Origin: Nitriliruptorales bacterium
Lineage (GTDB): Bacteria; Actinomycetota; Nitriliruptoria; Euzebyales; Egibacteraceae
Reading direction: 5' to 3'
Assembly: GCA_007119305.1 (NCBI GenBank)
Contig: SKPY01000133.1
Coordinates: 1 to 32,597 of the forward strand
Length of the DNA: 32,597 bases
The position numbers and the translations under genes are program-made. Of this stretch, positions 340 to 26,253 are shown one piece after another. The notes under the pieces are model-generated. The model saw only the letters and a list, made by a program, of their open reading frames with translations. It ran no database searches and was not told where the DNA came from. Position 1 is the first letter of the stretch. Each line of letters opens with the position of its first letter.

Positions 340-1653
340 ATGCACGTCCGACTGGCCTATGGGAGCGACGGGCTCGACGTGGAGCTGCCCGACGAGCGCA
401 CCGTCGTGGTCGAGCCCACGCTGCAGGCCGGGGCGGAGGACCCATACGGCGTCCTCCGCGCCGCGCTGCGGGAGCCCGTCGCCGGCCTGCCCCTGCGCGA
501 CCTCGTCCGACGCGGGCAGCGCGTCGCGATCTCCGTGTGCGACGGCACCCGCGCGCAGCCCCGCCACCTCATGGTCCCAGCGGTGCTCGAGGAGCTCGAG
601 GGCACCGTTGCCCTTGGCGATGTCGTCGTGCTCGTGGCGACCGGTACCCACCGGGGGAACACGCCCGAGGAGCTGCGTGGGATGCTCGGCGATGCCGTCT
701 GCGACGCGGTGGCCATCGTCAACCACGACGCACGTGACGAGGCAACCCTCTCCTGGCGGGGCATGCAGGGTGACGGGGTGCCGGTGTGGCTCAACCGGCA
801 GTGGCTGGAAGCGGACGTCCGCATCACCACCGGCTTCGTGGAGCCGCACTTCTTCGCGGGGTTCAGCGGCGGCCCGAAGATGGTCGCACCCGGGCTTGCG
901 GGGCTCGAGACCGTCCTCACGCTGCATGACGCGGCGCGCATCGCTGATCCCCAAGCGACCTGGGGAGTCTGCGACGGCAACCCGGTGCACGACGACATCC
1001 GCGCAGTCGTCGGCGCCGTCGGGGCCGTCGACTTCGCCCTTGACGTGGTCCTGAACAAGCAACAGGAGATCGTGCAGGCCTTTGGTGGGGAGCTGTTCGC
1101 GATGCATGCGACGGCACGGGCTGCCGCCACCCGGGCCGCGATGCAGGCTGTGCCCGCGCCCTTCGACGTGGTGGTGACGACCAACTCCGGCTTCCCGCTG
1201 GACCAGAATCTCTACCAGTCCGTCAAGGGCATGTCGGCGGGAGCCACGGTGGTGAAGCCGGGCGGGACCATCATCTGTGCTGCCGAGTGCCGCGACGGCT
1301 TCCCCGATCACGGCTCGTACCGCGAGCTGCTGTGCTCCGAAGCCTCCCCGCATGCGCTGCTCGAGGCCATCCAACGCCGTCCTCGCACGACTCCGGACCA
1401 GTGGCAGGTCCAGATCCAGGCCAAGATCCAGCGCCACGCCCGAGTCGTCATGCACACGAGGTACCTCTCCGGCGAAGAGCTGCGGTCAGCGCATCTCGAG
1501 CAGACGGACGACATCGCGGCCACCGTCCGCGAGGCTCTCGCCGCCAGCGGGCCGGCGGCACGGGTGTGCGTGCTCCCGGAGGGGCCTCAGACCATCCCGT
1601 ACGTGGCCTCAGCACGCCGGTTCTTCTGCTGGGGTCACGGCCGGCGCGCGTAG
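340..1653 (+). CDS. LarA-like nickel-dependent racemase family protein (DUF2088)
   Basis: ORF track 304..1653. ATG at 340 follows AGGAGGTCC. LarA-like motifs: CDGTR, VATGTHRGNTPEEL, PHFFAGFSGGPKMVAPGLAGLETV, NKQQEIVQAFGGE. Confidence 0.85.
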   Translation: MHVRLAYGSDGLDVELPDERTVVVEPTLQAGAEDPYGVLRAALREPVAGLPLRDLVRRGQRVAISVCDGTRAQPRHLMVPAVLEELEGTVALGDVVVLVATGTHRGNTPEELRGMLGDAVCDAVAIVNHDARDEATLSWRGMQGDGVPVWLNRQWLEADVRITTGFVEPHFFAGFSGGPKMVAPGLAGLETVLTLHDAARIADPQATWGVCDGNPVHDDIRAVVGAVGAVDFALDVVLNKQQEIVQAFGGELFAMHATARAAATRAAMQAVPAPFDVVVTTNSGFPLDQNLYQSVKGMSAGATVVKPGGTIICAAECRDGFPDHGSYRELLCSEASPHALLEAIQRRPRTTPDQWQVQIQAKIQRHARVVMHTRYLSGEELRSAHLEQTDDIAATVREALAASGPAARVCVLPEGPQTIPYVASARRFFCWGHGRRA

Positions 1654-2666
1654 GGGACGCAGCCAGGGCTGCCGCAGTGCGCCACTTTCAGGGCGCTGTT
1701 GCCCCAGTAGCTGATGATGGGCAGGCCCTCGACGTCGAGCACCATGGCCACGTGCCCGCCGACGTCGCCGGAGTGGTCGACGGTGACGATCGCCGCCTCG
1801 CTGCAGCCGCGGTCCACGCAGCGCGCCACCCGCAGATCGGCATTTGTGCTGTACCGGTAGGCGATGACGGGCTGGCCGTGAGCGTCGATGGCCAGCGCTG
1901 AGAACCGCCCGACGTAGGTGTCGTCGTCGACGGTCGCCCGGCGCACCTGCCGGCAGTCGAGCGTACGGCAGTGTGCGACTTTGAGCACACCGCGTGTCGC
2001 GTCGTAGTAGCTCACGAGCGGCCGGCCGTCCACGCCGACCGCCAGCGACGTGAAGCGTCCGACGTTGCCCTCGTCGTCCAGGACGCGGATGTCCGCCTCC
2101 TCGCAGCCCGGAGTCCGGCAGCGCGCGAGCTTCACCGCTTCTCGGGTGTAGTCGTGATAGCTCACGAGCAGCAGGCCGCCAGCACCGATAGCAGCGGAGC
2201 TGAAGCTGCCGACGTTGCCATCATCGTCGACGATGACCGTTGACGATGACGCGCACGCGGGGTCCTGGCACCGGGCGACCTTCAGGGAGCCTTCGACCGC
2301 ATCGTAGTAGGAGATCAGCGGCAGCCCATGCGGGGCGATCGCGACCGAGGGGTAGAGGCCCACGTCACCGTCGCCCTCGTCGACGGTGGTGATGGTCACC
2401 GATTCACAGGCTGCGTCGCTGCAGTGGGCTGCCTGCAACGACCCAGCGTGCCGGTCGTGGTAGACGATCAGCGGGTGGCCATCGGCGCCGACGACCACAT
2501 CCGTGTGCCAGCCGGCGTCCGGCCCGTCAGCGATGATCTGGACCGAGGCGTCTGTGCAGCTGCGGTCTGCGCACCGCGCCAGCCTGAGGTCGCCGCGGTC
2601 GAAGTCGTAGTAGCTGATGACCGGGTGGCCGTCTGCCCCGATGGCGATCGACGTGAACCAGCCGAC
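1635..2666 (-). repeat. Seven tandem ~150-bp (48-51 aa) coding repeats
   Basis: First-Cys to first-Cys spacings are 50, 51, 50, 50, 50 and 48 aa. Consensus SYYD...G.LKVA(R/H)C....C. Confidence 0.9.
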
Positions 2667-2924
2667 CACGGTCCCGTCAGCGTCCACGGTGTGCAGCGTG
2701 TTCGGCCTCGGGACCGGGTCGACGACATGAGAGGGGTCACGCGGCGGCCCCTCCACCGCCGGCTCCTCCCCGAGCCACCAGCCTGTCTCCGGCGGGACCG
2801 CGTCGGCAGCCGGGTCCCGCGCCGCCTGCTCCAGCGCGTCCACCGGCCACGGGCCGTGGCTCGCGAACGCCGCACCTGCGGCAACAACCACAAGCACCCC
2901 GAGGAACAGGAGGCCGCGCTTCAT
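1635..2924 (-). CDS. Secreted repeat protein, probable seven-bladed beta-propeller with CX4C in every blade
   Basis: Start MKRGLLFLGVLVVVAAGAAFA (signal peptide-like), then seven copies of VG.(F/Y)(T/S)S.A.G.DG.P(L/V)(I/V)SYYD...G.LK(V/L)A(R/H)CxxxxC. Confidence 0.85.
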   Translation of the reverse strand: MKRGLLFLGVLVVVAAGAAFASHGPWPVDALEQAARDPAADAVPPETGWWLGEEPAVEGPPRDPSHVVDPVPRPNTLHTVDADGTVVGWFTSIAIGADGHPVISYYDFDRGDLRLARCADRSCTDASVQIIADGPDAGWHTDVVVGADGHPLIVYHDRHAGSLQAAHCSDAACESVTITTVDEGDGDVGLYPSVAIAPHGLPLISYYDAVEGSLKVARCQDPACASSSTVIVDDDGNVGSFSSAAIGAGGLLLVSYHDYTREAVKLARCRTPGCEEADIRVLDDEGNVGRFTSLAVGVDGRPLVSYYDATRGVLKVAHCRTLDCRQVRRATVDDDTYVGRFSALAIDAHGQPVIAYRYSTNADLRVARCVDRGCSEAAIVTVDHSGDVGGHVAMVLDVEGLPIISYWGNSALKVAHCGSPGCVPYARRP

Positions 2925-3176: not shown

Positions 3177-3935
3177 GTGGCAGCGAACGGGCTCGAAGAT
3201 CATGGCGTGATCGTAGTCGGTGCCGGCGACGGTATCGGCAAGGAGACGGCAGTTGCTCTTGCCGAGCGAGGGGCACGGGTGGCGTGCCTGGACCGCAACG
3301 GGGACACGGCGGCCGAGACCGCCGCGCAGGCCCAGCGGCACACTGCGGGCGCTTTGAGCTTCAAGATGGACGTCACGGACGACGACGCGGTCGACCTCAC
3401 GGTCGAGCAGGTGGAAGCAGAGCTCGGCCAGATCCACGCGCTCGTCAACTGTGCCGGCACGACGGGGCAGACCAACCTCCGGAGCCACGAGGTCGACGTC
3501 GACGACCTCGACTTCGTCTACCGCGTGAACCTGCGGGGGGCGTTCCTGCTCTCCCGGGCGGTGCTCCCGCGGATGCTCCCGCGCGGCTACGGCCGCGTGC
3601 TCCACGTCACGTCGATCGCCGGGAAAGAGGGCAACGCCGGCATGATGGCCTACTCGGCCACCAAGGCCGGCCTGATCGGGATGGTAAAGGCCCAGGGCAA
3701 GGAGTACGCCGAGACCGGGATCACCGTGAACGCGCTCGCTCCGGCGGTGATCCGCACGGCTATGGTTGCCGCGCTGCCCGAAGAGCAGGTCCAGTACATG
3801 ACGAGCAGGATCCCAATGCGCCGCTGCGGCACCCTGGCCGAGGCCGCCACCATGGTCTGTTGGATCGTGTCTCCCGGGTGCAGTTTCACGACCGGCTTCA
3901 CCTTCGACCTGTCTGGCGGTCGTGCCGTCTACTGA
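3177..3935 (+). CDS. SDR family NAD(P)-dependent oxidoreductase
   Basis: GTG start. GAGDGIGKE nucleotide-binding motif, NCAG, and YSATK catalytic motif. Confidence 0.9.
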   Translation: MAANGLEDHGVIVVGAGDGIGKETAVALAERGARVACLDRNGDTAAETAAQAQRHTAGALSFKMDVTDDDAVDLTVEQVEAELGQIHALVNCAGTTGQTNLRSHEVDVDDLDFVYRVNLRGAFLLSRAVLPRMLPRGYGRVLHVTSIAGKEGNAGMMAYSATKAGLIGMVKAQGKEYAETGITVNALAPAVIRTAMVAALPEEQVQYMTSRIPMRRCGTLAEAATMVCWIVSPGCSFTTGFTFDLSGGRAVY

Positions 3936-5145
3936 CCGGAGCGCGCCCGCACGGGATCGCCACTACGCCTCCCTCAAGTGGCGGCTCGCCTTCACCGCGA
4001 GCCTCGCGTTCGCCGCCGCTGCAGGGACGCTCATGCAGTTCGTGCTCGGTGCACTCGGCCCGTTTCTCGTCGAGGACCTGGGTCTCAGCCGAGCGCAACT
4101 GGGGACGCTGACCACGCTCTTCTTCGCGCTGGGGGCGTTGTGCTCGACGCCTGCTGGCGGCCTCGTGGACCGCGTGGGCGGGGATCGCGTGCTCGTCGCC
4201 TACTTCGGCCTCGTTGGCTGCGCCATGGTCGGTCTCGCCGCCGCGCCCTCGCTGCCGTGGCTCTGGCTTGCCGTGAGCGTTTCGGGCATCGCGCATGCGG
4301 CGATGAACCCCGCCACGAACGATCTCATCGCCACGCAGGTCCCGCCCGGACGCCAGGCGGTGATCACTGGGGTGAAGCAGTCGGGTGTGCAGGTGGGAGC
4401 GTTCCTCGCGGGCGCGCTGCTGCCGCCCATAGCTGTCATCCTCGGCTGGCGCAGCACGGTCGCCCTCGCCGGGGTGGTCATCTTCGCGGGGGTGTTCGGC
4501 AGGCTCCTCGTGCGCAAGCCCTCGAGACGAGCGCCGGCCGCCAGCGGGCAGGAGCCGACGGGGCGCCGACCGTTGAGCAGCCTGGCACGCTGGCTCACCG
4601 TCTATGCGCTGCTCATGGGCTTCGGCTACTCCTCGGTCATCGCCTACCTGCCGCTATACGGCTACGACGCGCTCGGCATGACCGCGGCGGCAGCCGGGAT
4701 GCTCACCGGAGTGCTGGGGTTCGTGGGGATCGGGGGCCGTATCGCCCTCGCCCGCATCAGCGAGCTCCGTGGCCGCGCCGACGGGATCCTCACCGCCGTC
4801 GCGCTGGCAGCGGCCGTGGCGCAGATCGCGGTGCTCGTCGCGCCGGTCGTCGGCACCTGGTCGCTCTGGGCCGCGGCGGTCGGGCTCGGCCTCACCGCGG
4901 CCTCATGGCATGCGGTGGGCATGCTGGCGGTGATCCGCGAGACACGCGGTGTCTCCACCGGCAGGGACACTGGCATCGTGCACGCAGGCTTTCTCGTCGG
5001 GCTCATGACCTCGCCCGTGGTGCTCGGCTGGAGCGTGGACCGCACCGGAACGTATGTGATCACCTGGGGCGCGGTGGCCGTGGCCTTCGCGCTAGCCGCC
5101 GTGCTGAGCTGGGCGTGGAGGCGGAGCTGCGCCGCGGGCGCGTAG
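3922..5145 (+). CDS. MFS transporter
   Basis: Many hydrophobic helices. PAGGLVDRVGGDRVL loop typical of MFS. Overlaps the SDR end by 14 nt. Confidence 0.88.
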   Translation: MPSTDRSAPARDRHYASLKWRLAFTASLAFAAAAGTLMQFVLGALGPFLVEDLGLSRAQLGTLTTLFFALGALCSTPAGGLVDRVGGDRVLVAYFGLVGCAMVGLAAAPSLPWLWLAVSVSGIAHAAMNPATNDLIATQVPPGRQAVITGVKQSGVQVGAFLAGALLPPIAVILGWRSTVALAGVVIFAGVFGRLLVRKPSRRAPAASGQEPTGRRPLSSLARWLTVYALLMGFGYSSVIAYLPLYGYDALGMTAAAAGMLTGVLGFVGIGGRIALARISELRGRADGILTAVALAAAVAQIAVLVAPVVGTWSLWAAAVGLGLTAASWHAVGMLAVIRETRGVSTGRDTGIVHAGFLVGLMTSPVVLGWSVDRTGTYVITWGAVAVAFALAAVLSWAWRRSCAAGA

Positions 5146-6303
5146 CGGCGGCCCCTGCGCGGCGTTGACCGCACCGACGACGGTGGCAGCGAGGCGCTCC
5201 AGCGCAGCGAGGCTGTGGCCATCGCAGAAGGCGTCCACATGGGGCAGAGCCGCGGCCATGCCAGCGGCCAGCGGCGCGTAGCCCGGGTGACCCTTGCGGG
5301 GGTTCGCCCAGACAACCCGAAAGGCCAGGCGTGAGAGACGAGCCATCTGCTCCCCGAGCAGCGTCGCATCGCCGCGCTCCAGACCGTCGGACAGCACCAC
5401 CACCACCGAGCTCCTGGCAAGGCCGCGCTGGCCCCACTCGTGGAGGAACTCGCGCAGCTTCTCGCCCAGGCGCGTGCCCCCCTCCCAGTCCGGGACCGCC
5501 CGGGAGACCGCAGCGAGTGCCAGGTCAGGCTCGCGGTGGCCCATCTCCCGGGTCACGCGCGTCAGGCGGGTGCCCATCGTGAACACCTCGGTCGGTGCCT
5601 GCACACGCCGCCGCGCCGCGTGGGCGAACCGCAGGAGCACGTCGGCGTACGCACCCATCGAGCCACTGACGTCCAGAAGCAGCACCACGCGTCGGGGCCG
5701 GAAGCGGCGGTCCCGGTAGCGCAGGCGTGACGGCTCGCCCGCGCTCTGGAGCATCTCGCGGACAGTGCGTTGAGGATCGAGCCGACCACGGCGGGCGGGA
5801 GCGAGGCGGCGGGTCCGGCGGAACTGCCCGGGGAGCCAGAAGGCTTCCAGCAGCCGCTGCAGCTCTGCACGCTCCTCGGGGGTCAGCGTCGTGACGTCCT
5901 TGTGCCGCAGGAGCTCGTGGGTGCTTGCCTGCAACTCCCGTGTCTCCGCTTCGGCCTGCATCTCCTGTCCCTCGGCGGAGTCGCCCGCGCCGGTCACTCG
6001 CTCGATGCGGCGGCGACGGGGGCGACTTGGTCGTTCCTCAACATGCGGGAGCGCGCCGGCGAAGTAGGCCGCGAAGACCCGGTCGTAGCGGCGGATGTCA
6101 TCGGGCGTACTGCACAGGGTCAGACGGCCCGCCCAGTACATCTGTTCGCGCGACGACGGGTCGAGGCGGTCCAGGCATGCCACCAGTTGCTGCACCCGAT
6201 CGGTGGTGGCTGGTACGCCGACGGCCCGCAATGCGGCGGCGAGGCCGACCACGGTGGCGATGGCGTCGTGCGACGCCGACGCGGTATCCGCCTCTGTGCT
6301 CAA
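5092..6303 (-). CDS. VWA domain-containing CoxE-like protein
   Basis: MIDAS motif VVLLLDVSGSMGAYADVLLRFAHA. Directly downstream of, and overlapping by ATGA, a MoxR ATPase gene. Confidence 0.88.
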   Translation of the reverse strand: MSTEADTASASHDAIATVVGLAAALRAVGVPATTDRVQQLVACLDRLDPSSREQMYWAGRLTLCSTPDDIRRYDRVFAAYFAGALPHVEERPSRPRRRRIERVTGAGDSAEGQEMQAEAETRELQASTHELLRHKDVTTLTPEERAELQRLLEAFWLPGQFRRTRRLAPARRGRLDPQRTVREMLQSAGEPSRLRYRDRRFRPRRVVLLLDVSGSMGAYADVLLRFAHAARRRVQAPTEVFTMGTRLTRVTREMGHREPDLALAAVSRAVPDWEGGTRLGEKLREFLHEWGQRGLARSSVVVVLSDGLERGDATLLGEQMARLSRLAFRVVWANPRKGHPGYAPLAAGMAAALPHVDAFCDGHSLAALERLAATVVGAVNAAQGPPLRARGAAPPPRPAQHGG

Positions 6304-7235
6304 CGTCCCGCTGCGGGCTGCACACCCGGGAGCGTGGCGAAATCGAGCGTGCGAGCCCGTTCCTGGTCCTCGTGATACTTGAGCACCGAGCCGAGCGTCA
6401 GTGCCATGAGCTCCGCGTCGAGCTCCTCTGCACCGAGGGCGACGAGCGCCTGGGTCCAGTCGAGCGTCTCAGCGACACCGGGCGGCTTCACGAGATCAGC
6501 CTCCCGCAGGGCCTGCACCGCCGCGGTCACCTGTTCGGTCAGTCGCTCGCTGGCGTGGGGCAGCCTCATGCGGACGATCGCGACCTCACGGTCGAACGAT
6601 GGGTGGTCGAGCCAGTGGTACAGGCACCGCCGCTTGAGCGCGTCGTGCACCTCGCGGGTACGGTTGGACGTGACGACAACGACTGGGGGCGTGTCCGCGT
6701 GGACCGTACCGATCTCGGGAATCGACACGGTGAAGTCGCTCAGCACCTCGAGCAGAAACGCCTCGAACTCGTCGTCAGCACGATCGACCTCGTCGACGAG
6801 CAGCACGCTCGGGGTCGTCTCCAGCGCCTGCAGCAGCGGCCGGGGGATGAGGAAGCGACGGTCGTATAGCTCACCTTCAACAGAGTCGACATCAGTCCAC
6901 TTCCCGCCTCCGATGCCTGCGACCGTCTCGATCGACCGAAGGTGCAGGAGCTGGCGGGGAAAGTCCCAGTCATAGAGCGCCTGCGATACGTCGATGCCCT
7001 CGTAGCACTGCATGCGGATGAGCGGCGCCTGCAACAGCCGCGCGAGCGTCTTGGCGACCTCCGTCTTGCCCACGCCCGGCTCCCCTTCGAGAAAGAGCGG
7101 GCGCGACAGCGTGAGGCCGAGGTAGCAGGCGGTCCCGAGGCCGAGGTCGGCGAGGTAGCCGTGCCGCTCAAGAGCCTCGACGAAGTCGTGGGGGCTCGTC
7201 ATGCCCTCGGGTAGGAGGCCAGCAGGCTGTGACAT
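6300..7235 (-). CDS. MoxR-family AAA+ ATPase, CoxD-like
   Basis: Walker A GEPGVGKTEVAKTLA, Walker B VLLVDEVDRADDEFEAFLLEVLSDF. Start MSQPAG preceded by GGAG. Confidence 0.9.
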   Translation of the reverse strand: MSQPAGLLPEGMTSPHDFVEALERHGYLADLGLGTACYLGLTLSRPLFLEGEPGVGKTEVAKTLARLLQAPLIRMQCYEGIDVSQALYDWDFPRQLLHLRSIETVAGIGGGKWTDVDSVEGELYDRRFLIPRPLLQALETTPSVLLVDEVDRADDEFEAFLLEVLSDFTVSIPEIGTVHADTPPVVVVTSNRTREVHDALKRRCLYHWLDHPSFDREVAIVRMRLPHASERLTEQVTAAVQALREADLVKPPGVAETLDWTQALVALGAEELDAELMALTLGSVLKYHEDQERARTLDFATLPGVQPAAGR

Positions 7236-7275
7236 CAATCGCTCCATGGCAGGTCCCGTCGAGCGGGGTCGTCGA

Positions 7276-8112
7276 TCAGGTCGCGCCGTCGAGGTTCTCA
7301 CCGATGCCGCCAGGACGGAGCAGCGGCCGCTGACTGCCGCTCCGCTTCTCCGACAGCGCAGCGCTCAACAGGGCGGATACTCGGTGCATCTCCGGGACGA
7401 TCGCCGTGGCGAAGTCGCCATGGAGGCGCACGGTCGGGCCGGACACGCTGAGAGCAGCGACCGGTTTGCCACCACCGAACACGGGGACGGCGACGCACCG
7501 CACCCCAAGCTCCTCCTCCTCGTCGTCCGTCGCAAAGCCGTTGGTGGCCACCTGGTCGAGCTCTGCGAACAGGTTCTCGCGCTCCGTGATGGTGTTAACG
7601 GTACAGGCGGGCAGGCCGGTGCGCTCCAGGATGCCCTCGACGACCGCCCGCGGCTGGAACGCGAGCAGTACCTTGCCAGTTGCGGTCGCGTGTGCCAGCG
7701 CCCGCCTGCCGACCTCGGTGATCATGCGCATCGCGTGCGGTGACGGTGCCTGGCGGACGTAGAGGGCGCTGGTGTCGTCCAGGACAGCCAGGCTCGCCGT
7801 CTCTCCCGTGGCCTCGACGAGCCGGACCAGGTGCGGCTCGGTCCACGGCCCGAACAGCTGCCCCGCTGAGACGTCGAGCCGCACCAGCCCGACACCCGGT
7901 GCGTACTTGCGCGAGCCGGGGTCCCGGCGCGCGTAGCCGCAGGTCACGAGCGTCGCGAGCAGACGATGGATCGTCGCCGTGGGCAGACTCGTCGCCTTCG
8001 CGAGCTCGCTGATACCCACCTCGCCCGGAGACGAGGCAAGGATCTCGAGCAGCATCAGCGCGCGTTCGACCGACTGAACGCCGCTGTCACCGTCATGCTC
8101 GGCGATGGCCAC
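7276..8112 (-). CDS. IclR family transcriptional regulator
   Basis: N-terminal wHTH SVERALMLLEILASSPGEVGISELAKATSLPTATIHRLLATLVTCGYARRD plus an IclR effector-type domain. Confidence 0.92.
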   Translation of the reverse strand: MAIAEHDGDSGVQSVERALMLLEILASSPGEVGISELAKATSLPTATIHRLLATLVTCGYARRDPGSRKYAPGVGLVRLDVSAGQLFGPWTEPHLVRLVEATGETASLAVLDDTSALYVRQAPSPHAMRMITEVGRRALAHATATGKVLLAFQPRAVVEGILERTGLPACTVNTITERENLFAELDQVATNGFATDDEEEELGVRCVAVPVFGGGKPVAALSVSGPTVRLHGDFATAIVPEMHRVSALLSAALSEKRSGSQRPLLRPGGIGENLDGAT

Positions 8113-9796
8113 TTCCTGGAGCCCCTCCTTCGGCCTCTTGCAGACGGGTCCCCGGCGTCAGCTGCGCGGGGTCGGTCCGAAGCTCGATGACAGCAGGACG
8201 TCCTGATGCGAGAGCACGCTCCAAGGCGGCCGGGAAGGCGTCCGTGTCCTGCACGACCTCGCCGTGCGCCCCGAATGAGCGGGCGTACGCCGCGAAGTCC
8301 GGGTTGACGAGGTCGACACCGTAGGCCCGGCCGGGATACAGGCGCTCCTGGTGCATGCGGATCGTGCCGTACATGGTGTTGTTCACGACGATGAGGATGA
8401 CCGGCAAGTCGTACTGGACCGCCGTGGCGAGCTCCTGGCCGCTCATCAGGAAGCAGCCGTCGCCCGCGACGCCGATCACCGTCCGCTCCGGTAGCACCGC
8501 CTTGGCAGCGATGGCAGCCGGCACGCCGTAGCCCATCGCCCCGCTCGTCGGCGCCAGCTGGGTGCGGACACGGGAGAACTGCAGGAAGCGATGCATCCAC
8601 ACCGTGTAGTTCCCGGCGCCGTTCGTGATGATGGCATCGGGCGGAAGGTGCTCGCGCAGCACCGCCATCACCTCCCCGAGGTCGACACCGCTACGGACGG
8701 GCTCGTGCTGGAGACTGGCGAGGTACTCGTCGCGCGCAGCCTTGCGCCAGGCCGCCCAGGCGGTGCTGTCGACGGGCTCCAGAGCCCGCGCCGCCGCGGC
8801 GAACGCTCCCGGGTCGGCGTTGATGAGCAGATCCGCGGCGTACACGCGCCCGAGCTCTTCCGCTCCCGGGTAGACGTGGACGAGTTGTTGCCGCGGCCGT
8901 GGCGGCTCGAGCAGGGTGTAGCCACTCGTGGTTGCGTCGCCCAGGCGTGCCCCCACCGTGATGATGAGGTCCGCTTCCCGGATCCGCTGACCGAGAGCTG
9001 GGTTGATGCCAAGGCCGGCCACACCCACGTACTGCTCGCTGCGGTTGTCGACGTGGTCCTGGCGCCGGAAGGTGGCCACGACGGGAAGGTCGTTCGCCTC
9101 GGCGAATGCCTCGAGGTCCCGGCTCGTGGCCTCGGTCCAGGCGCCGCCGCCTACGAGCACGAGCGGGCGGTGGGCCGGCTGCAGCAACGCGCGGAGCTGC
9201 CGCAGCTGTGCGGGGCTCGGGTGTGGGCGCACGATCTGGAACGGCGGGGCGTCGTCGACCTCGCAGGTCTCGGCGAGCACGTCCTCGGGCAGGGCGATCA
9301 CCACCGGCCCGGGCCGCCCGGAGACCGCGGTGTGAAAGGCACGACTGACGAGCTCGGGCAGGCGCACGGGGTCGTCGATTTGCGTCACCCACTTCGCCAT
9401 CTGACCGAACACCCTGCGGAAGTCGAGCTCCTGGAAGGCTTCGCGCTCGAGGTGGGCGCGCTCGACCTGACCGACGAACAGGATCAGCGGTGTCGAGTCC
9501 TGAAAGGCCGTGTGCAGTCCGACGCTCGCATGCATCGCCCCGGGGCCGCGGGTCACGAGGCAGATGCCAGGCCGGCCGGTCAGCTTGCCGTATGCGTCGG
9601 CCATGTTCGCCGCGCCGGCCTCATGCCGGCAGACCGTGAGGGCCAGCTGCTCCGGCACGTCGCGGAGGGCGTGGAGGACGGGGAGAAAGCTCTCTCCAGG
9701 CACGCAGAAGAGCCGGTCGGCCCCGTGAACGAGCAGCTGGTCGACGAGGACCGCACCGCCGGATCGGGGCCCAGGTGGGGACGACGGCGCCCTCAT
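8093..9796 (-). CDS. Acetolactate synthase-like ThDP-dependent enzyme (possibly a 2-oxoacid decarboxylase)
   Basis: CRHEAGAANMADAYGKLTGRPGICLVTRGPGAMHA and ThDP motif GDGCFLMSGQELATAVQYDLPVILIVVNN. Start MRAPSS at 9796, ATGA overlap with the cupin gene. Confidence 0.92.
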   Translation of the reverse strand: MRAPSSPPGPRSGGAVLVDQLLVHGADRLFCVPGESFLPVLHALRDVPEQLALTVCRHEAGAANMADAYGKLTGRPGICLVTRGPGAMHASVGLHTAFQDSTPLILFVGQVERAHLEREAFQELDFRRVFGQMAKWVTQIDDPVRLPELVSRAFHTAVSGRPGPVVIALPEDVLAETCEVDDAPPFQIVRPHPSPAQLRQLRALLQPAHRPLVLVGGGAWTEATSRDLEAFAEANDLPVVATFRRQDHVDNRSEQYVGVAGLGINPALGQRIREADLIITVGARLGDATTSGYTLLEPPRPRQQLVHVYPGAEELGRVYAADLLINADPGAFAAAARALEPVDSTAWAAWRKAARDEYLASLQHEPVRSGVDLGEVMAVLREHLPPDAIITNGAGNYTVWMHRFLQFSRVRTQLAPTSGAMGYGVPAAIAAKAVLPERTVIGVAGDGCFLMSGQELATAVQYDLPVILIVVNNTMYGTIRMHQERLYPGRAYGVDLVNPDFAAYARSFGAHGEVVQDTDAFPAALERALASGRPAVIELRTDPAQLTPGTRLQEAEGGAPGSGHRRA

Positions 9797-10461
9797 GCTG
9801 CCCCCGGCAGGACGATCGGCTCGTCGACGAACACGGTGTAGCGCTGGCTCTTTGGCTTGTCGCGATCTTCGGGGCGCACGTAGCGGATCGATGGCTGCCC
9901 CCGCAGGCGCCGCGGGAGGACCATGACTCGGGCGAAGCTGGTGTCCTCGCGATCTGACGCCGCTGCGAACACCGGCTCCGGGCCGCGCTCGTACCAGGGT
10001 TCGAGCGGCTCGATCGTGGAGACGCCACCTTCCGTCTCGACCCGCAGACGGCCCCGCAACAGGCAGCGGATACCAGGGCCCTGATGCGTGTGCAGCAGGG
10101 CCACGCCGCCGGGCGGGAAGTCGACCCGGTCGCAACGCACCAGGTAGCCGTCGTGATCGGTCAGAGACAGCGAGCCGGTAAGCGACGGCGGCCCGTCGGC
10201 GGCTTCCGCGCCGGCGGGCAGGAGCTCCCATCGCAACACCGTGGCGTGTCCGTTCACCGCGACGACCGTCGTGGCAGCGGTGCCGAGCGTGGCCTCGTTG
10301 GCACCGAGCCGCTCCGGCCATCCGCCCCCAGGGCTGGCCAACGTAACGGTGCCGTCCACGACGTAGAGGATCCGCACGGCAGGCCTGGCACCAAGGGGGA
10401 GCCCATCGGCGCCAACGGCGTCCCGATGGAACCGCAGCTCGTGGGTGACAGGCTCGCTCAT
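9793..10461 (-). CDS. Cupin-domain protein
   Basis: Start MSEPVTHELRFHRDAVG. Cupin-like PPGGVALLHTHQGPGIRCLLRGRLRVE. Start overlaps the NIPSNAP stop (ATGA). Confidence 0.75.
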   Translation of the reverse strand: MSEPVTHELRFHRDAVGADGLPLGARPAVRILYVVDGTVTLASPGGGWPERLGANEATLGTAATTVVAVNGHATVLRWELLPAGAEAADGPPSLTGSLSLTDHDGYLVRCDRVDFPPGGVALLHTHQGPGIRCLLRGRLRVETEGGVSTIEPLEPWYERGPEPVFAAASDREDTSFARVMVLPRRLRGQPSIRYVRPEDRDKPKSQRYTVFVDEPIVLPGAA

Positions 10462-10772
10462 CGGATGGGAGAGAACGGCGCGGGGCGCAGGATGAGGTTC
10501 TCCTGCTCGACGATCAGCACCCGGAGCTTCTGTACGAACGCTTGCCACTTCTCGTTCGTTGCAAGCTCCGCGCGTCGACGGTCCCGGTCGTCGAAGCTCT
10601 CATAGCCCCACATGTGCACGATGCGGTTCAGCGGCCCCACCTCGCTCGAGAAGTAGCCGATCAGATGGCCGAGGATGGGCTCCTGGATCGCCAGGCCCTC
10701 CCGCTCGTAGAGCTCGAGGTACTCCGAGGCCTTCCCGGGTTGCAGGGTGTAGATGCGCTGCTCGACGATCAT
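10458..10772 (-). CDS. NIPSNAP family protein
   Basis: MIVEQRIYTLQPGKASEYLELYEREGLAIQEPILGHLIGYFSSEVGPLNRIVHMWGYESFDDRDRRRAEL. RBS GGGAGGAG. Confidence 0.88.
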   Translation of the reverse strand: MIVEQRIYTLQPGKASEYLELYEREGLAIQEPILGHLIGYFSSEVGPLNRIVHMWGYESFDDRDRRRAELATNEKWQAFVQKLRVLIVEQENLILRPAPFSPIR

Positions 10773-10814
10773 GATCTCCTCCCAGCGGCGGCGCTGTCGC
10801 GAGCGCCGACGATG

Positions 10815-11585
10815 TCAGTTGAAGTAAGCGCCCCCATCGACGAGCAGGCTCTGACCGGTGATGAAGCTCGCCTCTGCGCTCGCGAAGAACACGGCGGCGC
10901 CGACGAGGTCTTCCGGGTACTGGTCGCGTTGCAGGGTCCGGGCGTTGCGGGAGATCTCCTGCAGCTTCTCAACCTGCACCGGGTTCGCCTTGACACCGTC
11001 CGAGAGGGTGAATCCCGGGGCGATCGCGTTCACGAGGATGCCGTCGCCGCCCAGCTCCTTCGCGAGGGCACGGGTCAGCGCGACGACCGCCCCCTTGCTG
11101 CTCGTGTAGTGCAGGAGGTACGGCACCCCCTTGAACGGGGTGCCCGATGCGAGGTTGATGATCCGTCCGCCCCCCCGCTCCCGCAGCGCGCGCACCGCGG
11201 CTTTGCAGCAGAGGAACATCCCGAGCACGTTGACGTCGAACACCTTCCGCCAGGTGTCGACGTCGATGTCCTCGAACGGCCCGGGATTGAGCGAGGCGTA
11301 GATCCCGGCGTTGTTCACGAGCACGTCGAGCGCACCGAACGCCTCGATGGTCTCCGCCACCATGCGGCGCGTATCGTCCTCGTTCGTCACGTCGGCGGTG
11401 ATGCCCACCGCACGATGCCCCTGCTCGACGAGCGCCTCGGCCGCGGACTCGGCGCCGGACACGTCAACGATGGCCACCGCTGCGCCTTCGTTGGCGAGCC
11501 CGTCCGCGATCGCTCGCCCGATCCCCATGGCGCCGCCGGTCACGATCGCCGACCGGCCCTCGAGACGCCCTCCCTGTGCTGCCAT
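10815..11585 (-). CDS. SDR family oxidoreductase
   Basis: VTGGAMGIGRAIADGLA, NNAGIY, YTSSK. RBS GAGGAGGG. Confidence 0.92.
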   Translation of the reverse strand: MAAQGGRLEGRSAIVTGGAMGIGRAIADGLANEGAAVAIVDVSGAESAAEALVEQGHRAVGITADVTNEDDTRRMVAETIEAFGALDVLVNNAGIYASLNPGPFEDIDVDTWRKVFDVNVLGMFLCCKAAVRALRERGGGRIINLASGTPFKGVPYLLHYTSSKGAVVALTRALAKELGGDGILVNAIAPGFTLSDGVKANPVQVEKLQEISRNARTLQRDQYPEDLVGAAVFFASAEASFITGQSLLVDGGAYFN

Positions 11586-11608
11586 GCTGTTCCCTCCTCG
11601 TGTGGATC

Positions 11609-13072
11609 TCAGGTGATGTCGCCAAGGCAGTGGTACTTGAGCTCAAGCCACTCCTCGAGCCCGTACTTGGAGCCTTCTCGCCCGATCCCCGACTCCTTGA
11701 AACCGCCGAAGGGCGCGACCTCGGTCGAGATCAGCCCCGTGTTGATGCCGAGGATGCCGAACTCCAGACGCTCGGAGACTCGCCAGATGCGTCCTACATC
11801 GCGTGCGTAGAAGTAGGCGGCCAGCCCGTACCGGGTGTCGTTGGCGATGGCGAGCGCCTCGTCCTCCGTGGAGAAGCGTCGGATCCCGGCCACTGGCCCG
11901 AACGTCTCCTCGCAGCACATGTCGGCTTCGTCGACGACATCTGTGAGCACCGTGGGCTCGAAGAAGGTGCCGCCGCGCGCGTGGGGCTGGCCGCCGAGCA
12001 GCAGCCGCGCCCCCCGGTCCAGAGCGTCGGCTACGTGGCGCTGCACCTTCTCGAAGCCTTGCTGGTCGATGAGGGGCCCGATCTTCGTCCCGGGTTCCAG
12101 GCCATGGCCCACGGTCAGCTCCTTCGCAGCCGCGACGAGGCCGTCGACGAACGCGTCGTACACGTCATCGTGGACGAGGATGCGGTTGGCTGAGATACAG
12201 GTCTGGCCGCTGTTGCGGTACTTGCAGATCAGTGCGCCTTGGATGGCGGACTCGAGATTCGCATCGTCGAAGACGATAAACGGGGCGTTGCCCCCGAGCT
12301 CCAGGGAGATCTTCTTGACCTGGGGGGCGCACTGCTCCATGAGTAGCTTCCCCACGGCAGTGGATCCGGTGAAGCCGATCTTGCGCACAAGCGGGTTGCC
12401 CGTGAGCTCCCGTCCGATGATCGGTGCATCATCGGCGCCGCCGGTGACGACGCTGAAGACCCCCGAGGGGAGACCAGCCCGCATTCCGAGCTCGGCGAAG
12501 GCGAGGGCCGACAGCGGCGTCTGCTCGGCTGGCTTGAGGACCATCGGGCACCCTGCCGCGAGCGCTGGAGCGGCCTTGCGGGCGGGCATGGCCACGGGGA
12601 AGTTCCAAGGCGTGATCCCGCCCGCGACCCCGACCGGCTCCTTGGTCACGAGGATGCGCTTGTCGGGCTGGTGCGGGGGGATGGTGTCGCCGTACACGCG
12701 CTTGGTCTCCTCCCCGTACCACTCGAGGAAGGAAGCACCGTAAAGGACCTCCGCGTGCGCTTCCGCGAGCGGCTTGCCTTGCTCACTGGAGAGGATCGTC
12801 GCGAGGTCGTCGGCGTGTTCGACGAGTAGATCGGCCCATCGACGCAAGACGCGGGCACGCTCCTTGGCCGTGGCCCCGCGCCAGCCCGGCAAAGCCACCG
12901 CCGCGGCTTCGATCGCCCGCCGGGTCTCCGTCTGCCCCACCCGGGGAACGGTACCGAGGGTCTCGCCTGTCGCAGGATCCTGCACGTCGAGCGTTGCTCC
13001 CCCGTCGGCGTCGATCCAGGTGCCGGCGACCAGTGCCTGGGAGCGCAGCAGGTCGGTGTCGGTGAGTCTCAT
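11609..13072 (-). CDS. gabD-like: NAD(P)-dependent succinate-semialdehyde dehydrogenase-type aldehyde dehydrogenase
   Basis: Start MRLTDTDLLRSQ. EPVGVAGGITPWNFPVAMPARKAAPALAAGCPMVLKPAEQTP, LELGGNAPFIVFDDA (Glu), GQTCISANR (Cys). Confidence 0.9.
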   Translation of the reverse strand: MRLTDTDLLRSQALVAGTWIDADGGATLDVQDPATGETLGTVPRVGQTETRRAIEAAAVALPGWRGATAKERARVLRRWADLLVEHADDLATILSSEQGKPLAEAHAEVLYGASFLEWYGEETKRVYGDTIPPHQPDKRILVTKEPVGVAGGITPWNFPVAMPARKAAPALAAGCPMVLKPAEQTPLSALAFAELGMRAGLPSGVFSVVTGGADDAPIIGRELTGNPLVRKIGFTGSTAVGKLLMEQCAPQVKKISLELGGNAPFIVFDDANLESAIQGALICKYRNSGQTCISANRILVHDDVYDAFVDGLVAAAKELTVGHGLEPGTKIGPLIDQQGFEKVQRHVADALDRGARLLLGGQPHARGGTFFEPTVLTDVVDEADMCCEETFGPVAGIRRFSTEDEALAIANDTRYGLAAYFYARDVGRIWRVSERLEFGILGINTGLISTEVAPFGGFKESGIGREGSKYGLEEWLELKYHCLGDIT

Positions 13073-13164
13073 CCCTTGTCTCCTCGCCGTGTCGAGGTCG
13101 CCGCTGCGCGTCGTGAACCCCCTTCGGAATGGCGAGCGCGCGGCGTGCTGCATGCAGGGCGCCC

Positions 13165-13920
13165 TCAGGCTACGCCGAGGTAGCGTTGCTGCGCTTCTTC
13201 GTCTTCGAGCAGGTCCTTCGCCTTCAGGTCTGCTTCGACCCGCCCGTTCAGGAGGACCAGCACCCGGTCGCAGAGCGCTGTGGCGAACCACAGGTTCTGC
13301 TCGATGAGGAAGATCTCGTGGCCCTCCTCCGAGATCGTGCGGAAGGTGTCCACCAGGAGTTCCACGATGCTCGGGGCCAACCCCTCGGAGGGCTCGTCCA
13401 TGACCAGCATCTCCGGGTTGGTGAGCAGGGCACGCCCGATGGCGAGCATCTGCTGCTCGCCACCGGAGAGGTTGGCCGCACCGAGGTTGCGCCGGTCGGC
13501 AAGCCGCGGAAAGAGGTCATAGATCGTGTCCACGTTCCACCGCTGCCCGGACGAGGCACCGACCATCGCGAGGTGCTCGTGGGTGGTGAGCGACGGGAAG
13601 ATCCTGCGGCCCTGGGGCACATACCCGATGCCGGCGTTCACGATCTGGTAGGGCTGCCGTCGCAAGAGGCTGTGGTCTTTGAAGCGGACGGAGCCCGATG
13701 CGGCGCTGAGCAGCCCGACGATGGTCTTGGCCAGGGTGGTCTTGCCCATGCCGTTGCGGCCGACCATAGCCACCGGCTCGGCCCCCACGGCGAAAGTGAC
13801 GTCCTGGAGGATGTGTACCCGGCCGTAGTAGACGTTGAGCCCGTCGACCGTGAAGACCGGGTCGTCAATCGCCGCCCCTACCGGGCGCTCCGTCGCCGGC
13901 TGGTTCTCAGGTGTCTTCAT
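13165..13920 (-). CDS. livF: Branched-chain amino acid-type ABC transporter ATP-binding protein (LivF-like)
   Basis: GRNGMGKTTLAKTIVGLL, LSGGEQQMLAIGRALLTNPEMLVMDEPSEGLAP. MKTPENQP start at 13920. Confidence 0.9.
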   Translation of the reverse strand: MKTPENQPATERPVGAAIDDPVFTVDGLNVYYGRVHILQDVTFAVGAEPVAMVGRNGMGKTTLAKTIVGLLSAASGSVRFKDHSLLRRQPYQIVNAGIGYVPQGRRIFPSLTTHEHLAMVGASSGQRWNVDTIYDLFPRLADRRNLGAANLSGGEQQMLAIGRALLTNPEMLVMDEPSEGLAPSIVELLVDTFRTISEEGHEIFLIEQNLWFATALCDRVLVLLNGRVEADLKAKDLLEDEEAQQRYLGVA

Positions 13921-14686
13921 GGCGCTTCCCCAGATAGATCTCGTGGACCTCCGTGCTCTGACGGATGTCATCAGGAGTGCCCTCCATGAGCTTCTTTCCC
14001 TCGTGCATGACCACGATCCGGTCGCCGATCACGAGGGCGATGTCCATGTCGTGCTCGATCAGCAGGAGTGTGATCGAGGGGGCGAGATTGGTGAGCATGT
14101 CGACGAGGTGGGCGCGCTCCGAGGGTGAGAACCCGGCAGCGGGCTCGTCCAGCAGGAGGAGCTTCGGGTCACCACCGAGGGCCATGCCGACCTCGAGCTG
14201 GCGCTGCTCGCCGTGCGAGAGCTCGCTGGCCGGCGTCTCGGTCTGGCCCGCGAGCCCGACCTGCTCGGCGAGCTCGCGTACCCGCGCCGAACGCTCGGCA
14301 TCCCGTAGTACCGACCGCAGCGGGTTCACGCTCCGGGGCGGTGCGGCCAGTGACAGGTAGAGGTTGTCTGCCACCGTGAGATCGAGGAACAGCTTTGAGG
14401 TCTGGAACGTGCGCGTTAGGCCCCGTTGCGCGCGCTTGCGGCTCGGCAGCCGCGTGATGTCCTCACCGAACAGCTCGACCGTGCCGCCCGTGGGCTTGTA
14501 CAGCCCCGCGATGAGGTTGAAGAGCGTGGACTTGCCGGCCCCGTTCGGGCCGATCACCGAGACCCGGTCGCCGTGTTCGACGTCGAGGTCGACGTCGGAC
14601 ACGGCACGGATGCCGCCGAAACGGCGGCTCAGGCCCTGCACCCGCAGGGCCTGAGCCTGGCCGTTGCCGCTGTCGGTCACGGGCAC
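13907..14686 (-). CDS. livG: Branched-chain amino acid-type ABC transporter ATP-binding protein (LivG-like)
   Basis: GPNGAGKSTLFNLIAGLYKPTGGTVELFGEDIT, RTFQ, LSHGEQRQLEVGMALGGDPKLLLLDEPAAGFSPSE. GTG start. Confidence 0.9.
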   Translation of the reverse strand: MPVTDSGNGQAQALRVQGLSRRFGGIRAVSDVDLDVEHGDRVSVIGPNGAGKSTLFNLIAGLYKPTGGTVELFGEDITRLPSRKRAQRGLTRTFQTSKLFLDLTVADNLYLSLAAPPRSVNPLRSVLRDAERSARVRELAEQVGLAGQTETPASELSHGEQRQLEVGMALGGDPKLLLLDEPAAGFSPSERAHLVDMLTNLAPSITLLLIEHDMDIALVIGDRIVVMHEGKKLMEGTPDDIRQSTEVHEIYLGKRHEDT

Positions 14687-16029
14687 CCGTCGAGGCGCTC
14701 GAACGGCTCGGGGTGCTGCTCGATGCCGTCGTCGCGGCGCAGCAGCTCGGTCGTCAGCTCCCCGTCATCACCCTCGACGACCTGGAAGATGAAGTTGCTG
14801 ACCGCGCCCTGGTTGTTCTCATCGACACCGTCGATCGGGCCGATGGGGGTGTCCCACGCGACGGTGCTGAGGGCGTTCCGCAGACCCTCGTGACCGTCGT
14901 CGAGGTCACCACCGACTTCCTCGAGGGCGTGCAGCAGGGACTTGAAGCTGTTGTAGTACAGCGCCGCGAACAGCGACGGGGTCTCGAAGCCGTCGGGGAA
15001 CTCCGCGTGGTAGCGCTCCTCGAAGTCAACCCACTCCGCGTTGTCCTCGTCGGCGAACACCGGAGCGGCGGCAACGATGTCCTCCACCGCGTCGCGCAGG
15101 TCTGCACCCTCGGCGGCGAGCACGGTCTCATCCACGAGGATCGAACCGCCGATCAGCGGGATCTCCAGACCGAACTCGATCGACTGCTGCAGGAAGTTCA
15201 CGGCGTCGGAGCCGCCGATGCCGCCGTAGATGGCGTCAACGTCGGTTGGCATCGACGCGATCACCGAGCTGTAGTCGGACTCACCGAGCGGCACCCAGAA
15301 GGCCTCGGTGACCTCGCCGCCTGCTTCGCAGAACTGCGTGATGAAGCTGCCAGCGAGCGCGTGGGGGAATGCGTAGTCCTCGGCCACGATCGCGACGCGC
15401 TCGATGCCGAGCTCCTCATAGGCGTAGGTGCCGAAATTGCCGCCCTGCTGGTCACCGGCGGCGGTGAAGCGGAAGTAGTTGTCGGGACCCTCGAGCGTCG
15501 TCTCGGCACCGCCCGAGGAAGCGTCAACAAACGTGACGTCGGGCACGCCGGCGGCGTACTGGGAGATCGCGACACCTTCCGAGCCGGAGAGCGGACCGTA
15601 GACGATGTCCACGCCGTCCTGCTCGACGAGCTTGCGGGCGCGCTCCACGGCCGTGTCGGGGGTCGTGTCCGAGCTCTCGACGATGACCTCGATGGGCCGG
15701 CCGTTGATCTCGGAGTCGAACTCCTGGAGGGCCAGCTCCACCGCACGGCTGCCGTCTTCGGCACCGGCCGCGAACGGGCCTTCCAGTGCGTTTACGTGCC
15801 CGATCACGATCGCGTCGTCAGCCGGCTCCGCCGGCTCGTCCACGTCCTCGTCGACCTCGGGCTCTTCCTCGGGCTCATCGGCGGGTTCGTCGACGATGTC
15901 GTCGTCGACCTCGTCCACGGCGACGTCGTCTTCCACGCCGCACGCGGTGGCGATGAGGCTGAGTACGCCGAACATGGCAAGCAACATCCAGTTCTTGCGC
16001 CATCCGCTGGCACGTGACAGTGCAGTCAT
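14677..16029 (-). CDS. livK: ABC transporter substrate-binding lipoprotein (LivK-like)
   Basis: Lipobox-like LSLIATAC, acidic linker, periplasmic-binding fold sequence IVIGHVNALEGPFAAGAEDGSRAVELALQEFDSEINGRPIEVIVESSDTTPDTAVERARKLVEQDGVDIVYGPLSGSEG. Confidence 0.9.
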   Translation of the reverse strand: MTALSRASGWRKNWMLLAMFGVLSLIATACGVEDDVAVDEVDDDIVDEPADEPEEEPEVDEDVDEPAEPADDAIVIGHVNALEGPFAAGAEDGSRAVELALQEFDSEINGRPIEVIVESSDTTPDTAVERARKLVEQDGVDIVYGPLSGSEGVAISQYAAGVPDVTFVDASSGGAETTLEGPDNYFRFTAAGDQQGGNFGTYAYEELGIERVAIVAEDYAFPHALAGSFITQFCEAGGEVTEAFWVPLGESDYSSVIASMPTDVDAIYGGIGGSDAVNFLQQSIEFGLEIPLIGGSILVDETVLAAEGADLRDAVEDIVAAAPVFADEDNAEWVDFEERYHAEFPDGFETPSLFAALYYNSFKSLLHALEEVGGDLDDGHEGLRNALSTVAWDTPIGPIDGVDENNQGAVSNFIFQVVEGDDGELTTELLRRDDGIEQHPEPFERLDGCP

Positions 16030-16065
16030 TGCAGTCCTCCAATCGAAGTGCAGATGTCGTGCGTT

Positions 16066-16082
16066 CCTGCTCCAAGAGCAGG
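16066..16082. other. Perfect 7-bp hairpin in the livM-livK intergenic gap
   Basis: CCTGCTC-CAA-GAGCAGG. No adjacent T tract. Confidence 0.45.
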
Positions 16083-16122
16083 CGACTCGCTAGTTGTCCT
16101 GCGGCATGTCCTCCCTTGTTTC

Positions 16123-17172
16123 CTAGTCCGTGGACCGTTCTGACAGCTGTGCGGCCCCTGCGCCGACCCCCTTGCCCTCGACGGCATCTCGTGTGGCGGG
16201 ACGCCAGCGGTCGTGCGCCCAGAGGTAGTAGCCCGTGAACTGTCGCCACAGGCCGGCGATGCCCTGGGGGAAGAAGAGCACGACGACGACGAACACGACG
16301 CCGGTGAGCGTGAGGTAGCGGGAGGTGAAGAACTGCGAGAAGTTCTGCACCATCGTGAGCGCGAACGCGCCGATGAACGCTCCCGGCAGGCTGATCACGC
16401 CGCCCACCACTGCGGCGATGAGCACATCAATCGTGCGGATCAGCCCGACACCGTCCGGCACGATCTGCCGGTTGTAGAAGATCGCGAGCACCCCGCCGAT
16501 CGAGGCGATGAACGCTGCGAACGAGAACGCCACGACCTTGTAGGCGTAGACGTTGTAGCCAAGTGCGCGCATCCGCTCCGGGCTGTCCCGCAGCCCCCGG
16601 AGGGCCAGGCCGAAGGGCGTCCCCTCGATGTAGCGGCACAGGACATAGAGCAGCACCGCAATGGTCAGGGCCACGAGGTACTGCGTGCGCGCACTGACGA
16701 GGTCGAGACCGAGGAAGGTCGGTGGGCGAATGCCGGTGATGCCCTGGTGACCACGGGTGAACTGGGACGCCTGCAGGGCAGCAAAGTACATCAGCTGGGC
16801 CACGGCCAGGGTGAGCATGAGGAAGTACACCCCGGACGCTCTGATCGCGAAGGAGCCGACGAGGGCGCCGAGGAGGATCCCGAACACGATGCCGAGCGCG
16901 ATGGCGGGCGCGAAGGACCACCCCTGCAGCTGCACGAGGTAGCCGATCGTGTAGCCGGCGGCGCCCCAGAACGCAAGCTGGCCCAGCGACAGCAAGCCCG
17001 TGAACTTGTACAGGAAGATGAGGCTCAGCGCCATGACGCCGAGCCAGAGGGACTTGATGCCGATGTTCACGACCCAGAAGCCGGGCTGCGGCACCACGAA
17101 CGGGTAGATGATGAGCGCTGCGAGGAGGACCCCGCGCGCGGTCCAGCGAACGGCAGGCGACGAGAGCCTCAC
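16123..17172 (-). CDS. livM: Branched-chain amino acid-type ABC transporter permease (LivM-like)
   Basis: Multi-TM protein with GTPFGLALRGLRDSPERMRALGYNVYAYKVVAFSFAAFIASIGGVL. GTGA overlap with livH. Confidence 0.9.
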   Translation of the reverse strand: MRLSSPAVRWTARGVLLAALIIYPFVVPQPGFWVVNIGIKSLWLGVMALSLIFLYKFTGLLSLGQLAFWGAAGYTIGYLVQLQGWSFAPAIALGIVFGILLGALVGSFAIRASGVYFLMLTLAVAQLMYFAALQASQFTRGHQGITGIRPPTFLGLDLVSARTQYLVALTIAVLLYVLCRYIEGTPFGLALRGLRDSPERMRALGYNVYAYKVVAFSFAAFIASIGGVLAIFYNRQIVPDGVGLIRTIDVLIAAVVGGVISLPGAFIGAFALTMVQNFSQFFTSRYLTLTGVVFVVVVLFFPQGIAGLWRQFTGYYLWAHDRWRPATRDAVEGKGVGAGAAQLSERSTD

Positions 17173-18035: not shown

Positions 18036-18323
18036 GCTCTCTCTCACTCGTCGGTACGGGCACGAGCCCCGCCGGCGGAACGCGCCGACGGTCCAGCACC
18101 GCTCTGCCGGCGGGTTGTGGGCTCCGGTGGAAACGGCAAGCGTTCTGCATCGTGGACGAACGGGTCCGCTCCACGGAGCCAATGAGCAGCATAGTAGGCA
18201 GGGCCATGCCGCCTGACAAGGGGACGGGCCGATTTTCTTCCCGAGCCCGCCATCGGGCAATCAGTTCGATGGGCAGCAAGTCGTCCGCATCACGGAAAGA
18301 TGCTCCCGCGATGCGGATGGGGC

Positions 18324-18353
18324 TTGACCGTGGCTGGCGCGAAACCGTAGGGT
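18324..18353 (+). promoter_or_regulatory. Putative sigma70-type promoter of the molybdenum hydroxylase operon
   Basis: TTGACC-N18-TAGGGT in the divergent intergenic region. Confidence 0.35.
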
Positions 18354-18419
18354 CTGTCAACGGCCGAGAGCGGCCTACCGAAGCGTCTGGGACAAGTGAC
18401 GAGTATAGGGGTTGTGCAC

Positions 18420-19211: not shown

Positions 19212-19229
19212 GACCGAAAGGACGGATGC

Positions 19230-22332: not shown

Positions 22333-22371
22333 TCCTGAAACCGCCAGCGACCCATCGCGTTACGCCGCCAC

Positions 22372-22411
22372 GCGCGTAGAGGCGACCCCCGCAGGTCGCC
22401 TCTCTGCGCGC
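22372..22411. other. Strong intercistronic hairpin between the Mo-subunit and cyclase genes
   Basis: Perfect 10-bp stem AGAGGCGACC (22378-22387), loop CCCGCA, GGTCGCCTCT (22394-22403). Outer GCGCG/CGCGC pairing across a small internal loop. Confidence 0.65.
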
Positions 22412-22441
22412 CGGCCGGCGGGTTCCCAGGAGGTTCCGCCC

Positions 22442-23107: not shown

Positions 23108-23143
23108 CCGCCTCGCGCCTGTTCCCCTCGATCGAAGGAGCAC

Positions 23144-23455: not shown

Positions 23456-23494
23456 GCCGCCCGACGGCGCCGCCGTATCTCCGAGCAGCCGTCG

Positions 23495-23518
23495 AGGGCC
23501 CGGCACACGCCGGGCCCT
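23495..23518 (+). terminator. Candidate terminator-like hairpin after the EthD gene
   Basis: Perfect 10-bp stem AGGGCCCGGC-ACAC-GCCGGGCCCT, 40 nt after the stop. No strong U tract. Confidence 0.5.
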
Positions 23519-26247: not shown

Positions 26248-26253
26248 CCGGGA

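Follow-up and report, generated by a model that had tools for sequence, protein, structure and literature searches.

A predicted seven-bladed beta-propeller family with a cysteine pair in each blade, and its member beside a conserved catabolic cluster in Nitriliruptorales

What fold is built by an apparently exported protein of seven repeats in which every repeat carries one CX4C motif and no cysteine lies elsewhere, what do the seven cysteine pairs do, and what might such a protein be for? These questions are raised by a gene near one end of the 32,597-nucleotide stretch of a Nitriliruptorales genome analysed here, to which we refer as the window. By combining translation, structure prediction, repeat counting across genomes, a tree and a comparison of gene order, we trace how the repeats close into a ring, how the cysteine pairs are distributed over that ring, and in what genomic company the gene is inherited.

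The gene and its predicted fold

The gene lies on the minus strand, where it runs from an ATG at 2924 (MKRGLLFLGVLVVVAAGAAFA) to 1635 (1635..2924 including the stop codon) and encodes a product of 429 amino acids. The original prediction had placed it at 1635-2666; the repeat part is indeed located there, but the whole gene reaches 2924. Its reading of seven repeats with exactly one CX4C each and no other cysteine is confirmed by translation. The repeats are about 50 amino acids long and their motifs, all on the minus strand, are CADRSC in blade 1 (residues 118-123, 2556..2573), CSDAAC in blade 2 (168-173, 2406..2423), CQDPAC in blade 3 (219-224, 2253..2270), CRTPGC in blade 4 (269-274, 2103..2120), CRTLDC in blade 5 (319-324, 1953..1970), CVDRGC in blade 6 (369-374, 1803..1820) and CGSPGC in blade 7 (417-422, 1659..1676), which succeed one another at spacings of 50, 51, 50, 50, 50 and 48 and are followed by the C-terminal tail VPYARRP. 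All 14 cysteines of the protein fall within these seven motifs; when 14 cysteines were placed at random in a protein of the same length, at most five CX4C pairs arose in 100,000 trials. We regard the gene as real because a full-length relative in the genome of another genus of the same family (G014), 45-47% identical to it, keeps all seven repeats and all 14 cysteines. A lineage-specific expansion was rejected, the gene being single-copy in its genome, as was a phage or plasmid origin (no phage match and one weak plasmid match).

Ahead of the repeats, residues 1-22 (MKRGLLFLGVLVVVAAGAAFAS; 2859..2924, minus strand) read as a signal or anchor segment with a basic start, a hydrophobic core and AFA preceding the linker, and the G014 relative likewise begins with a hydrophobic segment. 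We infer from this that the protein is exported or displayed outside the cell. Residues 23-72 (2709..2858, minus strand) form a linker rich in proline and acidic residues, modelled from the single sequence at low confidence and as mostly unstructured.

The remainder, residues 73-429 (1638..2708, minus strand), is predicted to be a complete propeller domain. Modelled by AlphaFold2 with a 77-sequence alignment (A3) restricted to open reading frames of seven or fourteen repeats, a choice that repeat counting preceded, it shows one N-terminal strand followed by the strands of seven repeats, 28 strands in all (7 blades x 4), with a pLDDT of 97.2 and a pTM of 0.94; an earlier single-sequence model, with the right topology and a pLDDT of 65.7, was superseded by this one. 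Searched against the PDB with Foldseek, the model returned Photorhabdus seven-bladed lectins of the PLL/PHL group at ranks 1-21 without exception (TM 0.71-0.81, E down to 8.6e-16), and a viral fold library was matched by propellers of tail-protein and sialidase-like type, none closer than the PDB matches. A closed seven-bladed beta-propeller with four-stranded blades, as originally proposed from the repeats, is thus strongly supported by the model. In blade 1, strand c (domain residues 40-46) terminates at Cys46 and Cys51 stands just ahead of strand d (54-60); therefore CX4C spans the turn between strands c and d. DSSP places the N-terminal strand at domain residues 4-9 (2682..2699, minus strand), where it would be the outer strand d that closes blade 7.

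Repeat counts in the rest of the family lend ring closure a support that does not depend on structure prediction. Among 93 complete open reading frames, 55 have seven repeats, 18 fourteen and one twenty-eight (74/93 in total), and several of the others span about seven repeat lengths or show a double-length gap where a repeat was missed. These 93 are partly paralogues and hence not all independent; the sevenfold number nonetheless recurs across phyla.

Extent of the family and its likeness to lectins

How far does this propeller extend, and which of its known relatives does it resemble? When 397 sampled genomes of the phylum were scanned with a profile of the repeat (A1), 14 proved to encode the family, and a consensus query, which is synthetic and biased toward consensus-like repeats, met 238 encoding places across genome contigs, among them contigs of Nitrospirota, Chloroflexota, Actinomycetota, Pseudomonadota, Acidobacteriota, Myxococcota, Armatimonadota, Patescibacteria and archaea. 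With the window protein as the query, no relatives were found in the genome contigs, and neither Pfam, NCBIfam nor the sequences of solved structures gave it a convincing match. The earlier view that the repeat cannot be assigned to a named family therefore stands for curated models, and we found no dedicated Pfam or NCBIfam model for it; it does not stand in the wider sense, since the repeat is not rare and belongs to a large family, spread across phyla, that points to beta-propeller lectins by its fold and, weakly, by its sequence. The kind of propeller is thus already known; what is new is the CX4C-stapled variant and its extent, and a search within a collection of papers found no description of the CX4C motif or of propellers with one disulfide per blade. 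Because there is no dedicated curated model despite the spread across phyla, members are likely to be annotated as hypothetical proteins or under unrelated names.

The likeness to lectins begins with the fold. PLL/PHL lectins (8q83, 6rgg, 5c9l) share with the window protein the closed seven-bladed ring, four-stranded blades, repeats of about 50 amino acids and potential repeated interblade sites, and the structural match covers nearly the whole domain; they differ in that sequence identity is 10-15%, and in that the window protein has an N-terminal signal or anchor segment and a CX4C in every blade, the latter not reported for PLL. PLL lectins have two conserved tryptophans in each hydrophobic sugar site (PMC12203525), a pair that the window repeats lack: the repeat profile has no tryptophan among the common residues at any position, and the window domain holds three tryptophans in all. 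The CV39L lectin of Chromobacterium violaceum (6gxs) shares the propeller fold as well, at a TM of 0.67-0.70. Among the 77 family domains, NCBIfam models named 'beta propeller lectin' were matched by 13, 'CV39L family lectin' by nine (best E 2.9e-14) and 'fucose-binding lectin' by three, all far below the curated cut-offs and with E-values that repeats inflate, plainly false matches (HisB, YdhT, designed TIM barrels) standing in the same tables. Three relatives scored 24.6-31.6 bits against NF052348, where the cut-off is 200, and one scored 38 bits against the CV39L model (NF052350), where it is 350; the window protein has no match among the lectin models, these two included. The whole-domain fold match to PLL/PHL lectins is thus present in the window protein, and similarity to their sequence models is absent. 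We nevertheless favour lectin-like binding because of the fold ranking and the recurrent, sub-threshold lectin-model matches of the relatives. By analogy with PLL/PHL and CV39L, the propeller would bind glycans or related polyhydroxy ligands through repeated interblade sites, in a multivalent and low-affinity manner, rather than act in catalysis.

Several other matches were set aside. A profile search of PDB sequences aligned designed TIM barrels (E 1e-7), a repeat artefact whose aligned segments are at odds with the fold, and the HisB-like, YdhT-like, DUF7253 and other matches of relatives are likewise artefacts of near-identical repeats; PDB sequences searched with the relative that matches CV39L gave nothing useful. 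An Asp-box propeller was rejected, as S.D.G.T[WYF] is absent from 76 of the 77 family domains and SxDxGxTW from the window sequence by eye, and so was a propeller of the VCBS or integrin type, as DxDxDG is absent from 75 of the 77.

Propellers commonly act as interaction scaffolds, and the relatives provide some reason to think of the window protein in this way, as a structural or protein-binding component of the surface, such as an adhesin head or envelope part, that has no specific sugar ligand. Relatives carry CWB2, SLH, PKD, collagen-like, sortase, RTX and CBM6 domains, and such cell-wall-binding and surface modules indicate that these proteins are probably displayed outside the cell. We consider a scaffold of this kind a serious though minority possibility for the window protein, which lacks such extra modules and whose family has lectins in particular as its nearest folds and recurrent weak sequence matches. 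A survey of fibrillar adhesins describes a cluster (cluster 16) whose domain overlaps BNR_4, bears a fucose-binding-lectin annotation in InterPro and is ambiguous as to adhesive function (PMC9210967); compared by its description, this cluster may overlap the CX4C propeller family.

The relatives also show local variety. At L061, L062, L065 and L063, two to five paralogous propeller proteins are encoded in tandem and differ in their N-terminal modules (CWB2 or collagen-like), an arrangement that suggests diversification of surface proteins. At L116 two propeller genes lie side by side, and the proteins at L080 and L083 end in tails rich in serine, threonine and proline, the latter with a putative surface domain named 'flexitail'.

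A further reading makes the propeller an extracellular enzyme that releases sugars or sugar acids for the neighbouring gene cluster, as distant kin of GH145, L-rhamnose-GlcA lyase and ulvan lyase (BNR_4, PF15892). GH145 BT3686 with its homologues and the Fusarium L-rhamnose-GlcA lyase follow the PLL lectins directly in the fold ranking, together with CV39L; a DG-P-(I/V)-x-Y hairpin is shared with the BNR_4 enzymes in addition to the fold, and through this hairpin 24 of the 77 family domains reach E<=1e-3 against BNR_4; and 5muk and 5mum are weak hits of the A3 profile (E 0.011 and 0.078). The cluster moreover encodes a gluconolactonase-type SGL protein and a FAH-family hydrolase that is closest, below the cut-off, to 2,4-didehydro-3-deoxy-L-rhamnonate hydrolase. 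The BNR_4 matches of relatives, however, are sums of partial matches, by which some exceed the gathering cut-off with no single passing stretch, and the window protein scores 12.6 bits where that cut-off is 27.3. The conserved positions are those of the repeat consensus and are equal in all seven blades, whereas an active site would need blade-specific residues, and in the near-equivalent blades of the window protein no residues of a blade-specific, catalytic-like kind were seen. We therefore hold an enzyme to be unlikely. Blade 6 would be the first candidate for a special site, because it is the best conserved between the window protein and its G014 orthologue (58% identity, with VDDDT.VGRF and AYRYS common to both).

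Cysteine pairs and their tryptophan alternative

The distribution of cysteines over the family bears on what the pairs do. Both cysteines are present in 682 of the 991 aligned repeats and a single one in 11, and in 50 of 58 cysteine-type domains every cysteine belongs to a pair. Occurrence is close to all-or-none when a protein has seven detected repeats: 27 such proteins carry seven pairs of seven, 17 carry six, one carries five and 18 carry none, and where six are present the pairless blade is blade 7 in 16 of the 17 cases. The window protein belongs with the first of these classes: seven repeats, a CX4C at the c-d turn of every blade and no further cysteine. Related short tails after the last CX4C (VPYHRR, IPFHRPR and others; 1638-1658 in the window) recur in this seven-pair class across phyla.

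Proteins without the pairs form a sister clade, drawn from Armatimonadota, methanogens, Thermoplasmata, Chloroflexota and Actinomycetota, which shares the repeat consensus and seven repeats per domain with the window protein. It differs at the c-d junction, where the alignment shows an invariant or near-invariant tryptophan at the start of strand d, in every blade and also in the N-terminal strand, in place of CX4C; this alignment is sounder evidence than a regular-expression count of tryptophan in the linkers, whose mis-parsing makes that count too low. When the tree is built with the cysteine columns removed, there is a single switch between having and lacking cysteines, and the branch that bears it has 100% SH-aLRT support. 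As for the N-terminal tryptophan, 18 of 19 cysteine-less domains have it, as do 7 of 16 domains with six pairs, and it is missing from all 41 with seven. The simplest reading, which we adopt, is that either a tryptophan or a disulfide holds each blade together at the outer c-d hairpin, with the N-terminal strand closing blade 7. Since CX4C takes the place of tryptophan blade by blade, the family offers a natural experiment in keeping extracellular propeller blades closed, from which a testable rule of stabilisation follows.

The window protein would be assembled in the same manner. Each repeat would contribute strands a, b and c of one blade and then, past the CX4C turn, a strand d; the N-terminal strand would complete blade 7 and thereby close the ring; and the cysteine at the end of strand c and that before strand d, once oxidised, would staple the outer strand to its blade outside the cell. 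As the tryptophan of the cysteine-less relatives occupies the same c-d hairpin, the cysteines resemble a covalent staple in the place of a tryptophan anchor rather than a ring of metal sites. Of the two roles first suggested for the pairs, an intrablade disulfide or a metal-binding ring, the former is favoured by their all-or-none occurrence, their parity, the exception of blade 7 and the mutual exclusion of tryptophan and CX4C. That the seven pairs bind metal ions or act as a redox switch is very improbable: the pairs are regular, stand at one position in every blade and could in principle ligate a metal, but metal binding is disfavoured because there are two cysteines per site, the loop residues are variable with no conserved set of additional His or Asp ligands, and tryptophan serves as a functional replacement, which fits a packing role, while parity is almost exact and pairs are lost mostly in blade 7, whose c-d hairpin seems to be substituted by the N-terminal strand. 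Neither VKOR nor Thioredoxin_4, which are canonical oxidases, was found in the window's genome, where DSBA has one weak match; this speaks against disulfides but is not decisive, because that assembly is 83% complete. In the near-complete G014 genome Thioredoxin_4 is likewise absent and the DSBA match is strong.

The neighbouring catabolic cluster

Which cellular process might such a propeller serve? Most of the remaining window is occupied by a conserved catabolic cluster (3177..31432, with no single strand assigned), recognised by family matches and by collinearity with G014. It encodes SDRs, CoxE, MoxR, IclR regulators, a TPP enzyme, ALDHs, a Liv ABC transporter, a molybdenum hydroxylase, SGL, FAH hydrolases and others, enzymes that, to judge from their families, would be typical of sugar-acid or related oxidative catabolism. 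The collinear block of G014, which holds nearly all of this cluster, spans about 27 kb (~4,102,787-4,130,259) and reads, in order, racemase-like, ALDH2, FAH2, FAH1, isochorismatase, SGL, IclR2, cyclase, a molybdenum-hydroxylase large subunit in two pieces, CoxM, the Liv transporter, ALDH1, SDR2, cupin, the TPP enzyme, IclR1, MoxR, CoxE, SDR1 and, as the last conserved gene, the propeller. Some 20 cluster genes thus keep a common order in two genera of the bacterial family, their products being roughly 45-83% identical in amino-acid sequence, and the synteny that includes the propeller draws on these two genomes. Other genomes of the bacterial family have MoxR-CoxE without the propeller, either next to a CO-dehydrogenase-like enzyme that is more distantly related or close to the end of a contig.

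Because the gene is inherited with the cluster in two genera, we propose for the propeller the role of an extracellular receptor or capture protein, which would probably serve the cluster by binding or capturing substrate or matrix at the cell surface. Taken as a whole, the explanation that we find best, an exported, stapled seven-bladed propeller with lectin-like binding that serves the catabolic cluster, has in our judgement an even chance of being right. Distinctly unlikely, by our estimate, is the more specific proposal of a widespread, uncatalogued clade of propeller lectins that passed from the tryptophan anchor to the CX4C staple in a single step and whose member in the window lineage acts as the extracellular substrate receptor of the molybdenum-hydroxylase cluster. 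If sugar binding is confirmed, a large environmental group would be added to the few host-associated bacteria with propeller lectins, and the conserved cluster offers a concrete place in which to search for the ligand.

Two genes next to or within this region set the window apart from G014. The MFS gene at 3922-5145 was not found in G014. On the other side of the propeller gene, a gene of the LarA (lactate racemase) family (304-1653, plus strand) converges on it, so that the 3' ends overlap by 19 bases; no such LarA-like gene was found in the G014 cluster or in the flanks examined. A peculiarity common to both genomes concerns the molybdopterin-binding large subunit, which in the window is split into two overlapping open reading frames, one for the MoCoBD_1 part and one for the MoCoBD_2 part (19766-22332, plus strand), and in G014 is split equivalently (L179:6308-8802, minus strand); since the split occurs in both, it is conserved and not an assembly error.
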